Below, piece by piece: positions 5,712-14,217 of a DNA stretch of 25,089 nucleotides. A model generated the notes under the pieces. It did no database searches. It was given only the letters and a program-made list of their open reading frames with translations, and was not told the origin of the DNA. This DNA comes from a virus: positions 1 through 25,089 of IMG/VR virus record IMGVR_UViG_3300048116_000006. One strand, given 5' to 3'. The position numbers and the translations under genes are program-made. Every line of letters starts with the position of its first letter. The first letter of the stretch is position 1.

Positions 5712-6051
5712 CCACCACTATGTTGATTTGAGGTATTTCTTGAGGCTCAGCTTCCTGCTCTTTCCAACCTGCCTGAGTCTTGAGATAGAATATAGCGGCT
5801 GTAACATTACCAGCCATAGCCATCTTGACTAGGTTCTGTGCCATTCTTACAGTCTGCTTCGCCCTTCCCTTTTTATAAGCCTCAGAAACCTCCGGCTGTC
5901 GCTCCTCTACTGCGCGGAAAGTATTCTCGCTTATCCCATAATAATCAGCCAACTGGCCTTTGGTGAGATAGGAAGCCAACTGCTCAAGGTTAGATATCTG
6001 ATCTTGCTCAAATACGAACGCAGGTCTGCCACCCTTGTCTTTTTCACTCAT
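5680..6051 (-). CDS. terS: Terminase small subunit
   Basis: A 123-residue protein with an N-terminal helix-turn-helix (about residues 22-55, LASYLTKGQLADYYGISENTF), a central oligomerisation helix containing the recurring VKMAMAGNVTAAIFYLKTQAGW segment, and an acidic C-terminal tail. This is the phage terminase small subunit family, which recognises the packaging site and loads the large subunit. The start codon overlaps the end of the TET dioxygenase gene by eight bases, so packaging genes are translated from the same message as the modification cassette. Confidence 0.9.
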   Translation of the reverse strand: MSEKDKGGRPAFVFEQDQISNLEQLASYLTKGQLADYYGISENTFRAVEERQPEVSEAYKKGRAKQTVRMAQNLVKMAMAGNVTAAIFYLKTQAGWKEQEAEPQEIPQINIVVDGRATNAPAE

Positions 6052-6853
6052 TTAGAAAACCTTTTAGCGCATAGAAAACCAAGCTGTTCCTGTACCCGCC
6101 GTCATGGGTTGGAACGATAGGGGTCACTGCGTGGACATTCCTCCATGCAGGATATAGCAATAGACTACCTGTCGGCATATCAAAGCAAGCGTCATAATCT
6201 GGGACATATAGACACCCACCTTTTGCGTTGTGTCTGTGCGTGTATATACAGTTCAGCGTCTGCTTCACATTCGCTCTATCCCTATGGAATGGCGCGGATA
6301 TGTTGAAATTACTGATGCTAGAGGTAAACAGGTCCCCGAACTTATACTTGTTATCAATACTAGAAACGGCGACAGAATGCTCCTTGTGCTGTTCTGGCAT
6401 ATAGTCAGCCATAACCTTTCCCATCTCCCTAGAAGCCATGAGCATCGCTTTCAGGAATGGCTTTGCGCTTTCAACAGCATGTACTCGACTTCTGTTGTGA
6501 TAGTCCCGCCTCATATGCGGTTTTTTGACTATTGAGCCGATAATGGTGCTTTGCTGAACAGTTCCCAGCTTCTTTGCCTGTGCTCGCGTTATATTCAGTT
6601 GCTTCTGTATCTTCATAACATCGGAACGCTCAAGCAGGTCTTTAGGAACTCTGTCTGATAGGAACTCCCTGTTAGCCAAAGCCATCAGGTTTTTGAGTTT
6701 TGAGTATTTTTCTGGGACACTTTGCAAATAGAGGCCAACCAGTTCATCTCCATCGTAAAGATATGCTGATTCGCAGACATTAGGCTCTATGTATTCACAT
6801 CTTGAGCCAGTTTGCCTTTCATGCTCTACCATCTCCATCTGTAACTTTTTCAA
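6044..6853 (-). CDS. TET/JBP-family Fe(II)/2-oxoglutarate dioxygenase acting on DNA bases
   Basis: A 269-residue protein whose C-terminal 90 residues show the TET/JBP double-stranded beta-helix core. The iron ligands are H190-x-D192 in APFHRDRANV and the distal H241 in WRNVHAV. The 2-oxoglutarate-binding Arg is R255 in GGYRNSLVFYAL. Between them, GGCLYVPDYD and GSLLLYP match the family. Enzymes of this family hydroxylate the 5-methyl group of 5-methylcytosine (TET) or thymine (JBP). About 180 N-terminal residues, basic and helical, lie outside the core and may bind DNA. The start is a TTG overlapping the upstream stop as TTGA, with GAGGAAA eight bases before it; an ATG at 6838 is an alternative. 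Substrate, 5mC or T, cannot be told from sequence. Confidence 0.88.
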   Translation of the reverse strand: MKKLQMEMVEHERQTGSRCEYIEPNVCESAYLYDGDELVGLYLQSVPEKYSKLKNLMALANREFLSDRVPKDLLERSDVMKIQKQLNITRAQAKKLGTVQQSTIIGSIVKKPHMRRDYHNRSRVHAVESAKPFLKAMLMASREMGKVMADYMPEQHKEHSVAVSSIDNKYKFGDLFTSSISNFNISAPFHRDRANVKQTLNCIYTHRHNAKGGCLYVPDYDACFDMPTGSLLLYPAWRNVHAVTPIVPTHDGGYRNSLVFYALKGFLNE

Positions 6854-7578
6854 AGCACTTTCCTCATACAGTGTTTAGCGTAGCCCTTGATATCTGCCTT
6901 GATATCTAACCTGTCCGGCTTCTGCTTCAGTGTTACCCATGGGCTCCAAGTCATAGCCATTTTCCTCGCCGCGTCATGGTCTTTATTCGTCTTGTACCAA
7001 TCATGCAAACCACCTGCATTGCTACCTATCTTGGGAGTATTGAACCAATAGTGATTAAACCGCAATACACCATTACCTTTTTCAATAGACTGCAATAAGA
7101 AGTCCCTATCCTCTTTCGTGTTTTCCCTGTAGTTCCAATGTATCTTAGATATGTGGAGCAGAACGCAACCTTCCGCGAACTTGCTGTTGATACTATGACG
7201 TTTCTTTTCAGTCCACGCGAACTGGGCGAAACTCATGCCTACGATCTCAAAAGGAAGCTTCATCGCCTTCTTTTCAATTTCCTTGAGAATGCTACCATCT
7301 TTGCGAACAGTCTTTCCGTTGTATATGCCGAACGCGGTGATATCGTCATCACACACCCACGCCCATTCGTGGTTCTGCTGGCGACACCAATCAAGCATGA
7401 AGTTTCTAACGAACGTCATACCCATATCATCCTTGCCGATATTGACTCTATTTGTTACAGCATCGTAGCTTTCATAGTCCTGCGGCTCAACAAAATGATA
7501 GACATCATAACCAGCATCTTCGAATATCTTGTGGGTCTTTGTCTTAGGCCTCCCCTTGCTAGGGATACAGACTATCAC
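6850..7578 (-). CDS. TET-associated glycosyltransferase (GT-A fold)
   Basis: A 242-residue GT-A-like glycosyltransferase beginning IVCIPSKGRP, the nucleotide-sugar binding strand, with a triple-Asp metal-binding motif VCDDDI at residues 77-79. A RNFMLDW helix precedes it and SINSKFAEGCVLLHISK and KEDRDFL follow. This matches the family repeatedly found beside phage TET/JBP enzymes, which transfers sugar to the new 5-hydroxymethyl base. The gene starts with GTG at 7578, overlapping the ParB-like stop as GTGA, and has only a weak ribosome site. It is therefore likely to depend on translational coupling, and it ends in a TTGA overlap with the dioxygenase. Confidence 0.82.
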   Translation of the reverse strand: MIVCIPSKGRPKTKTHKIFEDAGYDVYHFVEPQDYESYDAVTNRVNIGKDDMGMTFVRNFMLDWCRQQNHEWAWVCDDDITAFGIYNGKTVRKDGSILKEIEKKAMKLPFEIVGMSFAQFAWTEKKRHSINSKFAEGCVLLHISKIHWNYRENTKEDRDFLLQSIEKGNGVLRFNHYWFNTPKIGSNAGGLHDWYKTNKDHDAARKMAMTWSPWVTLKQKPDRLDIKADIKGYAKHCMRKVL

Positions 7579-8180
7579 AGTTTGTTCATTTCTTTTCTAA
7601 GGTAATCAAGGATAATGCCTCCGACATATGCGTCTTTCTGCCTCCAGAATTTGATAACCTCCTGCGCTTCCTCAAAATCATCAGAGTTGAACTCTATCTG
7701 TATAGCCTTCTTCACATCCCTTGTCATTTCATTAAGTTCAGCGTCATCGTCGTCGTCATCAAGAATAGAGTAGTCAAGATCACCAGCGAAGTCAGGTATG
7801 ACATCCCAGCCCAATATGTCTAGGTCTAACCCTTCTAGCTTGATAGCTTCTATTTCTTGCTCTAGTACGACATCATCCCAGCTAGAGTTTAGGCTGAGTT
7901 TATTGTCGGCTATGATGTAGGCTTTCTTTTCTGCCTCAGATAACCCTTCTACTGTCACCACTGGCACCTCGTCTAACTCAAGCAACTGCGCGGCATACAT
8001 TCGACCATGACCAGATAGAATCATTCCTTTTTCATCAACCTGTATCGGATTATTGAACCCGAACTTATCAATGCTGTTGGCTATCTGCTGTATCTGCTTC
8101 TCGCTATGGAATCTTGAGTTATTTTCATATGGGTGTATATCTTCTATGGGTGTAATCTTAAAATCTTCATCAGCTATCAT
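7575..8180 (-). CDS. ParB/sulfiredoxin-fold protein of the DNA modification cassette
   Basis: A 201-residue protein. Residues 8-95 form a ParB N-terminal domain: ITPIEDIHPYENNSR, IQQIANSIDKFGFNNPIQVD, then the GHGR motif at 57-60, where ParB proteins bind nucleotide. A strongly acidic stretch with six consecutive Asp lies near residue 145, and the rest is helical. ParB-fold proteins without the usual DNA-binding domain are common in phage base-modification clusters, sometimes fused to methyltransferases; none is fused here. The ATG at 8180 overlaps the upstream stop (ATGA). Its exact role, perhaps nucleotide-dependent targeting of the modifying enzymes, is inference. Confidence 0.82.
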   Translation of the reverse strand: MIADEDFKITPIEDIHPYENNSRFHSEKQIQQIANSIDKFGFNNPIQVDEKGMILSGHGRMYAAQLLELDEVPVVTVEGLSEAEKKAYIIADNKLSLNSSWDDVVLEQEIEAIKLEGLDLDILGWDVIPDFAGDLDYSILDDDDDDAELNEMTRDVKKAIQIEFNSDDFEEAQEVIKFWRQKDAYVGGIILDYLRKEMNKL

Positions 8181-8839
8181 TTCACTACCTTTTTGTCGTG
8201 GTCTATCCAAGTGTTGGCTTTAAAGTCTTCGATGTAATATTGCTCTGTGCCATCCTTGCTCCACTTCGTGTGGGCGATGTGCATGGGCTTATATGATGGT
8301 GCTACTTTCTTGATAAATCTTGACAGAAACCTCGGACCTGTAGTTTGCAGAACAAATCGGCCTTTCCAAATATCGTAGATATCTATAGATTCTTTTTCTT
8401 TGTAATTCTTCACGCATTCTTTCATTGCGGATTCCCAGAGCCTTGAGCCCTGAACAGAACCGATGAAGTCGTTTTCTATCCAAGACCATCTTTCTTTAAC
8501 GTGACGTATATTGTGGAATACAAACTCTTTCCCCCGCAAAGCGTCTAGCGGCTTCAAGATAAACATATCCATATCTATGTAAAACCCTCCATGGCGGTGC
8601 AATATACAGAACCTGACAAAATCAATCTTCTGTATCTCATAGCGGAACGCGTCATAGAAATCTAGGTAACTAGGGTAGTGTTCAGATATCAGGTTTCTGC
8701 AACTTTCTTCATTCCATAGAGTGTATTCATAGTCGCTGTAACCCTGACATATCTCCTTGCTTTTCAAGAACATAGGGAACTGCTCTATTTCTTTGCCTGT
8801 CAGGTTGAAATAGATTTGGTGTATTTTCTTTGGAATCAT
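8177..8839 (-). CDS. GT32-type sugar transferase (DXD-containing glycosyltransferase)
   Basis: A 220-residue glycosyltransferase of the Gly_transf_sug/Och1-like type. It opens with IPKKIHQIYF, carries the KIDFVRFCILHRHGGFYIDM segment and has the metal-binding DXD at residues 89-91 (IDMDMF). Later blocks are FVFHN, a GP motif in TTGPRFLSRF, and HTKWS. The sugar and acceptor are not readable from sequence. Because it is translationally coupled to the ParB-like gene and lies in one operon with a TET-associated glycosyltransferase, I infer that it acts on DNA-linked sugar or on the hydroxymethyl base. A virion or cell-surface target is the alternative. ATGA overlap with the upstream gene. Confidence 0.85.
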   Translation of the reverse strand: MIPKKIHQIYFNLTGKEIEQFPMFLKSKEICQGYSDYEYTLWNEESCRNLISEHYPSYLDFYDAFRYEIQKIDFVRFCILHRHGGFYIDMDMFILKPLDALRGKEFVFHNIRHVKERWSWIENDFIGSVQGSRLWESAMKECVKNYKEKESIDIYDIWKGRFVLQTTGPRFLSRFIKKVAPSYKPMHIAHTKWSKDGTEQYYIEDFKANTWIDHDKKVVK

Positions 8840-9087
8840 TGCTCAGTCCCAAATACTTCTTCAGTATTGGGAAGTGAAGCGAGTTTCTGGCGCACAGATT
8901 CTTCCGTGACCTGCTCTACTTTCTGTTTAACCTTTTCGCACCACTCAGCCATTACCCTGCGGGTCTGTTCGGCAGGGGCATCTTCTTTTAGAAAAGAATT
9001 TATTATCCCCGAAAGTTCTGCTTTTTCTGGGATAAGCTCTAGATCATAGCAGTCAAGAATTAGCTTACAGAAGTTGATTTCGCTCAT
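8836..9087 (-). CDS. Small helical protein heading the DNA modification operon
   Basis: An 83-residue, acidic, all-helical protein starting MSEINFCKLILDCYDLELIP with a Glu/Lys-rich second half (EWCEKVKQKVEQVTEESVRQ). I do not recognise a family. I prefer the ATG at 9087 because GAGGG lies seven bases upstream; the in-frame ATG at 9093 is too close to that site. It is the first gene after the promoter-like sequence at 9119-9148 and overlaps the GT32 gene by ATGA, so it should be expressed with the cassette. It might be an accessory or adaptor subunit, which is a guess from position only. Confidence 0.7.
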   Translation of the reverse strand: MSEINFCKLILDCYDLELIPEKAELSGIINSFLKEDAPAEQTRRVMAEWCEKVKQKVEQVTEESVRQKLASLPNTEEVFGTEQ

Positions 9088-13710: not shown

Positions 13711-14217
13711 CTATTGGAATCTGTGTTGTTGTAATCTAGCCCACAAGTTTTCTATCGGTAACAGCTCGTCATGTTGCAAGTAGAGCCTATTACCATAGCC
13801 GAAGTCTTTAGAATGACAAGCTTTCTGGAAGTTGGTTCTGTCCATCCAGCCATTAACTCGCATGACGTTGGGGTCTGATGTTTTACCGACTAGGATACCT
13901 ATCTGTGATTTGAACTTTTCCATATTGTCGAATATCAGCTTTCCATATTCATCATTCGTGAATTTGACGTCGATAGTGAAGTCATCAAACCAAAGGTCAA
14001 CACCGCCATCAGTTGCCACGTTAATTGTCGGCAGTTCCATGTGGAACAATCTAGCGACAGCGAACTCAGCCTTGAATCCGTAGACATTGGCCTCTACTCT
14101 GGACTGTCTTTTGTTTTCGAGCCTAGGGGCAAAGCCCTGCATCTCACAAAGTTTGACAGTATCTGCTCCCATTAGTTGGCAGGTATGAGCGTCCTGTTTA
14201 CTTAGACGTATTTTCAA
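13711..14217 (-). CDS. PD-(D/E)XK-like nuclease, TTG start
   Basis: A 168-residue protein with a likely PD-(D/E)XK nuclease core: helix with E51 (YGFKAEFAVARLF), strand with D74 (GGVDLWFDD) and D83-V84-K85 (TIDVKF). Spacing and order fit small phage or restriction-like nucleases and some Holliday-junction resolvases. The N-terminal 45 residues are helical and basic. The first codon is TTG at 14217 with GGAGGA six bases upstream; no ATG fits as well. It overlaps the upstream gene by 20 bases. The biological substrate is unknown; recombination intermediates or host DNA are possible. Confidence 0.65.
   Translation of the reverse strand: MKIRLSKQDAHTCQLMGADTVKLCEMQGFAPRLENKRQSRVEANVYGFKAEFAVARLFHMELPTINVATDGGVDLWFDDFTIDVKFTNDEYGKLIFDNMEKFKSQIGILVGKTSDPNVMRVNGWMDRTNFQKACHSKDFGYGNRLYLQHDELLPIENLWARLQQHRFQ

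Follow-up and report, generated by a model that had tools for sequence, protein, structure and literature searches.

A ParB-linked TET/JBP dioxygenase and two glycosyltransferases in a phage operon: a candidate base-J-like pathway of DNA modification

Base modification of phage DNA is a known kind of anti-restriction armour. Operons that combine a TET/JBP-type dioxygenase with a TET-associated glycosyltransferase (TAGT) were reportedly predicted computationally by Iyer in 2013. Glycosylated 5hmC is reportedly the product of phage TET clusters in the work of Burke (2021) and Pyle (2024), and Pyle et al. reportedly describe multi-sugar TET clusters as well. We know of no phage in which the base-J-like form of DNA glycosylation has been shown. 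Thymine-derived bases are found in phages ViI and M6, where they derive from 5-hydroxymethyl-deoxyuridine (5hmdU); in M6-type phages 5hmdU enters DNA from the nucleotide pool, as the authors infer (PMC6449724). The actinophage Tonitrus has ParB, TET, amino-acid:DNA transferase (AADT) and kinase genes, which its authors read as thymidine hypermodification (PMC11955845). T6-type phages pair an alpha-glucosyltransferase with an enzyme of family PF20691 (PMC13216743, PMC13390438).

The locus considered here combines a TET/JBP-type enzyme, a TAGT, a further glycosyltransferase and a ParB-like protein. It belongs to a marine phage and lies in the 25,089-base virus record IMGVR_UViG_3300048116_000006, taken whole and probably a genome fragment; this entire stretch is termed the window. 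The genes are as follows.

9093-8836, minus strand: leader gene, 85 aa from the first ATG (83 aa if counted from the third codon)
8839-8177, minus strand: GT32-type glycosyltransferase, 220 aa, DXD at 89-91, PF04488
8180-7575, minus strand: ParB-like protein, 201 aa, phrog_620, N-domain fold and helical tail
7578-6850, minus strand: TAGT, 242 aa, GTG start, PF20691
6853-6044, minus strand: TET/JBP-type 2OG-Fe(II) dioxygenase, 269 aa, TTG start, PF12851
6051-5680, minus strand: terminase small subunit TerS, phrog_309 (4e-16)
5711-4491, minus strand: terminase large subunit TerL, PF03237 (2e-15) and PF17289 (9e-11)

The cassette and its proteins

A first-pass annotation had described five genes with an overlap at each junction that lead straight into the terminase genes, and this layout holds. 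The five minus-strand genes (9093-6044) are joined by ATGA, ATGA, GTGA and TTGA overlaps and continue into TerS-TerL; TET and TerS overlap by 8 bases, and TerS in turn overlaps TerL. The ParB-like gene is taken to start at the junction ATG (8180), with a listed TTG 30 bases further upstream. All five cassette genes are under purifying selection (dN/dS 0.01-0.14 against loci L002 and L003) and thus are not chance open reading frames.

The TET/JBP protein matches PF12851 (Tet_JBP) at 3e-9, with 36.6 bits against a cut-off of 34.9. The catalytic residues, an HxD motif (H190, D192), H241 and R255, are all present as the annotation had listed them and are invariant in 52 aligned relatives. Is the beta-helix core, on which that reading depended, intact? 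Structure prediction returns an intact TET fold (pLDDT 92.5), with Z of 19.2 to TET2 and 18.8 to NgTet1. The best matches of the model are TET2, NgTet1, CcTet and CMD1 at Z 16-19, all of the TET type of double-stranded beta-helix, and scores are clearly lower against FTO (Z 14-15) and AlkB-type enzymes (Z 13-14). Membership of the TET/JBP family is confirmed by the Pfam match and the model, and oxidation of a 5-methylpyrimidine in DNA is the predicted activity. The name 'queuine tRNA-ribosyltransferase', attached to phrog_6059 and found also in cyanophage records (NC_020847, NC_020857, NC_023701, NC_047987), is a misannotation of TET.

The TAGT matches PF20691 (5e-15, 56.3 bits against a cut-off of 27.5) and phrog_842, beta-glucosyl-HMC-alpha-glucosyltransferase (2e-22). 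The motif proposed at D77-D79 reads DDD, with D78 and D79 conserved in the family (79 homologues), and that proposed at D89-D91 of the GT32-type enzyme reads DMD. The latter enzyme matches the DXD sugar-binding region PF04488 (5e-16, 59.5 bits against a cut-off of 23), and its PDB match is an Och1-type alpha-1,6-mannosyltransferase (9n3s, 5e-7). The GT32 gene is restricted to one phage lineage and is present in nine loci (the window, L002-L008 and L181), accompanied by a TAGT-type gene in 9/9 and by an AADT gene in none. As it is found only next to a TAGT-type gene, the sequential addition of two sugars is plausible. Most glycosyl-type loci have a TAGT without GT32, and hence TAGT is probably the enzyme that adds the first sugar. 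To call the TAGT and GT32-type pairing unrecognised, as the annotation did, was too strong, since this type of cassette is known. A TAGT-type enzyme teamed with a second glycosyltransferase has precedents in the T6-type phages and, reportedly, in the multi-sugar TET clusters of Pyle et al.

Of interest is the mosaic cassette of L181 (5001-9332), where GT32 is 73% and TerL 70% identical to the window proteins, whereas ParB, TAGT and TET are only 40-47% identical. These differences in identity (40-47% versus about 70%) indicate separate histories in L181 for the ParB-TAGT-TET block on the one side and the GT32/terminase genes on the other. The pattern fits a GT32 enzyme that acts after any version of TAGT; an unrelated moron could give it as well.

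The ParB-like protein shows a clear match to phrog_620 (2e-46) and a marginal one to Pfam ParB_N (1e-5; 25.5 bits, just under the cut-off of 26.3). Its AlphaFold model (pLDDT 87.6) aligns over residues 4-97 with the CTP-binding N-domains of ParB and Noc at Z of about 15; weaker matches are to sulfiredoxin (Z about 9-11) and free serine kinase (Z about 9). The best structural matches end at residues 95-132, with no recognisable parS-binding domain, and gene calls with general Pfam and PHROGs matching name no HTH or ParA-like gene beside it. A partition role is unlikely. In the records of Prochlorococcus phages MED4-184 and MED4-117, the ParB-like neighbour of TET/JBP carries the label DNA methylase; the MED4-184 protein is 47% identical to that of the window and is no methyltransferase.

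The leader protein belongs to no Pfam or PHROGs family and has only weak Pfam matches below cut-off. It is encoded upstream of ParB or GT32 in phages of the window's lineage, with dN/dS of 0.03-0.13, and its profile matches 16 loci, among them the AADT-type cassettes L028, L030 and L032. The leader singled out by the annotation is therefore a genuine conserved gene, although one without a family, and it has no specific link to glycosylation, as it is conserved with both TAGT- and AADT-type cassettes in the lineage. Its function is perhaps regulatory.

Neighbourhoods of related TET loci

The survey covers 173 TET loci, made up of the window and the loci found by scanning viral contigs twice and cultured phages once. 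Every locus with more than 2.5 kb of upstream sequence (110/110) has a ParB-like gene no further than 4 kb from TET, and this gene usually adjoins TET directly or adjoins the single enzyme between the two. Most marine relatives have the order ParB - decorator - TET - TerS - TerL, actinophage-type relatives have ParB - TET - decorators, and among the loci surveyed the cassette commonly adjoins TerS-TerL. Across these phage loci a ParB-TET pair by the terminase is nothing unusual: it forms the constant core, and it is the decorating enzymes that vary. Because ParB accompanies TET whatever the decorator, the ParB-like protein probably acts in oxidation, DNA loading or packaging, and not in one finishing step.

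A TAGT-type transferase is present in 78 of the 173 loci, eight of these with GT32, six with a PIG-L deacetylase and four with a sulfotransferase. An AADT and/or a P-loop kinase is present in 60 loci, one of which also has a TAGT. The remaining decorators are glycosyltransferases without TAGT (16 loci) and an FkbM methyltransferase (seven), and none is recognised in 13. Length limits were applied to the AADT and kinase profiles, the protein of L053 (6413-7921) being a single 502-aa fusion of AADT to a P-loop kinase. On the tree of the 173 TETs, a quick tree with SH-aLRT support only, whose sample contains no proven 5mC-type phage TET, at least 10 exchanges between TAGT and AADT/kinase decorators are seen.

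L044 (6112-9888) and L045 have the order ParB - TAGT-like - sulfotransferase (PF03567) - TET - APS kinase (PF01583) - 149-aa protein, the last with a nucleotidyltransferase-like GRYQPYHYGH motif seen by eye; this gene content points to a DNA base that bears a sulfated sugar, for which the phage supplies its own activated sulfate. A sulfotransferase is present in L062 and L067 too. In L011 (15790-17914), L012, L080, L084, L087 and L094 the enzyme between ParB and TET is a methyltransferase of the FkbM type (PF05050), and an O-methylated hydroxymethyl base could be the product; cultured Prochlorococcus phages share the arrangement, MED4-184 and MED4-117 having the order ParB-FkbM-TET. The succession TET - TAGT-type transferase - PIG-L deacetylase occurs in L014, L016, L018, L096, L136 and L169, suggesting that N-acetylglucosamine is attached and then deacetylated to an amino sugar. 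In L048 and L063 the TAGT is preceded by two proteins that perhaps form a sugar-activation pair: one of 175 aa, whose start looks NTP-transferase-like by eye, and one of 314 aa, which begins in a HAD-like manner and matches RIO kinase below threshold. Elsewhere in the window (13711-14217), a 168-aa protein shows by eye a D...DVK pattern resembling PD-(D/E)XK nucleases; it has only a weak PHROGs match, to a family without an assigned function.

Thymine or cytosine as the oxidised base

Which pyrimidine does the dioxygenase oxidise? The annotation left the choice between C and T open. Taken together, the AADT relatives and the lack of a C5-methyltransferase match now favour T, with 5mC as the lesser possibility.

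L031 belongs to the same lineage as the window (TerL 88%, portal 78% and TET 60% identical), yet the place of TAGT and GT32 is taken there by an AADT and a P-loop kinase; L028, L030 and L032 are similar. The AADT is PF18724, 'amino acid:DNA transferase', in L028, and phrog_3271 in L030 and L028. AADT is part of the 5-hydroxymethyl-uracil (thymidine) pathway, and its homologues include gp51 of phage M6 (1e-18) and, at E of about 1e-25, proteins from Salmonella phages of the ViI-like group. The P-loop kinase beside it has no detectable sequence similarity to M6 gp54. Within the 25-kb window itself, Pfam and PHROGs matching reveals no AADT or other described 5hmU-modifying enzyme.

Cytosine C5-methyltransferase (PF00145) gives no match in the window or in eight related records, which include relatives of 32.8 and 35.1 kb and the 38-kb phages MED4-184 and MED4-117, and none is seen inside the ParB-TET cassette. 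Matches are sporadic in other relatives (6/50 and 9/50 records, partial matches included) and fall within about 4 kb of TET in a few loci (L070, L087, L122, L142). A thymidylate-synthase/hydroxymethylase homologue is found in none of 20 records, which leaves TET as the sole visible source of the hydroxymethyl group. The AADT swaps within the lineage, the Tonitrus precedent, the interchange of decorators on the tree, the sporadic occurrence of C5-methyltransferase and the lack of a hydroxymethylase together make thymine more likely than cytosine as the oxidised base, as judged from gene content.

Counting against thymine, Burke et al. in 2021 reportedly showed phage TETs to be active in vitro on 5mC, the product of a C5-methyltransferase encoded alongside. 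To our knowledge, all phage TETs shown active in vitro so far act on 5mC. A methyltransferase could also sit outside the 25-kb fragment. T-even relatives of TAGT use glucosylated hydroxymethylcytosine as substrate (PMC13216743), and a TAGT-linked TET could accordingly have another substrate than an AADT-linked TET. The active site does not discriminate between C and T: Asn195 is invariant and aligns with an Asn of TET2. Position 263, Leu in nearly all loci and His in TET2, does not separate them either; the Leu and the catalytic residues are identical in the TAGT- and AADT/kinase-linked groups.

Proposed pathway and known systems

The phage very probably uses the cassette to oxidise a base in its own DNA and to attach one or two sugars. 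Oxidation followed by glycosylation, as the first-pass annotation proposed, is well supported by the protein families, the predicted TET fold, motifs, selection and neighbourhoods. A more specific reading, held to be rather probable, is a post-replicative cassette in which a JBP-like thymine hydroxylase and sequential glycosylation would produce an O-glycosylated thymine resembling base J. The ParB-like protein would cooperate with the dioxygenase on phage DNA, in DNA loading or in coupling to packaging. TET/JBP would hydroxylate thymine within DNA at its 5-methyl group, yielding 5-hydroxymethyluracil, TAGT would place a sugar on the hydroxymethyl group to give the base-J-like product, and the GT32-type enzyme may add a second sugar or a variant. 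The terminase encoded directly downstream would package the modified DNA, and host nucleases would thereby be kept off. In its broadest form, the proposal is of a viral base-J-like pathway from TET/JBP and 5-hydroxymethyluracil in DNA, through TAGT and then GT32, to a mono- or disaccharide, with ParB-TET generally a portable thymine-oxidising core beside the terminase and with interchangeable finishers (sugar, amino acid, methyl, amino sugar, sulfate); the chances of this being correct are about even.

Could the same cassette act instead on 5-methylcytosine, made by a host or phage C5-methyltransferase encoded outside the fragment, to give glycosylated 5hmC? Phage TET/TAGT precedents on cytosine, reportedly those of Burke 2021 and Pyle 2024, speak for it. 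So do the T-even TAGT (PMC13216743), the PF00145 genes in a minority of relatives and the fragmentary state of the record. Nevertheless, no C5-methyltransferase is seen in the closest long records, in the 38-kb Prochlorococcus phages or within the ParB-TET cassette, and the thymidine-pathway AADT sits with the same TET class in near relatives; the cytosine route is considered unlikely. Quite improbable is a division of labour in which TET and TAGT modify DNA and the GT32-type enzyme is an unrelated moron for host surface glycans or a virion protein. Its nearest solved structure, an Och1-type mannosyltransferase of glycan synthesis, is consistent with such a role, as are its confinement to one lineage and its retention in L181 beside a distant ParB-TAGT-TET version. 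The gene is, however, translationally coupled in the operon between leader and ParB, is kept in nine loci, and is always with TAGT and never with AADT. That the cassette is degenerate, or its enzymes no longer DNA-acting, is very improbable indeed: the Pfam TET match barely exceeds its cut-off, but the catalytic residues are invariant, the TET fold is predicted with high confidence and purifying selection is strong.

If thymine is the substrate of the proposed base-J-like pathway, phages produce a counterpart of trypanosome base J, a glycosylated thymine, and the large ParB-linked phage TET family is JBP-type, not 5mC-type. This would bear on the proposal that TET/JBP enzymes arose in phages. 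It would also add a set of DNA-modifying enzymes with products directly testable by LC-MS.

The cassette type as such is already established; of interest is the variant form, in which no C5-methyltransferase is visible and thymine is the likely substrate. The phage TET/C5-methyltransferase/glycosyltransferase clusters reportedly described in Burke 2021 and Pyle 2024 resemble the window in having TET/JBP and TAGT, and sometimes further glycosyltransferases, in one operon. The window differs in that no C5-methyltransferase is found in the fragment, a ParB-like protein is the constant partner and the evidence points towards thymine. With thymidine hypermodification (M6, ViI, phi W-14, Tonitrus), the connection is that pathway's AADT and P-loop kinase, found beside the same TET class in the window's lineage; unlike in the M6-type phages, the window's TET would form 5hmdU in DNA, and sugars would take the place of the amino-acid-derived group. 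The two-step glucosylation of T-even phages, by an alpha-glucosyltransferase and a PF20691 enzyme, likewise employs two glycosyltransferases, one of them PF20691, and ends in a disaccharide on a hydroxymethylpyrimidine. There, however, hydroxymethylation takes place on dCMP, ahead of its incorporation, and the other enzyme is not GT32. The product of the window is possibly of the base-J-like form: as in kinetoplastids (JBP1/2 and JGT), a hydroxylase of the TET/JBP family would be followed by a glycosyltransferase, here in a virus, with enzymes of the TAGT and GT32 families, and for genome protection rather than as an epigenetic mark.
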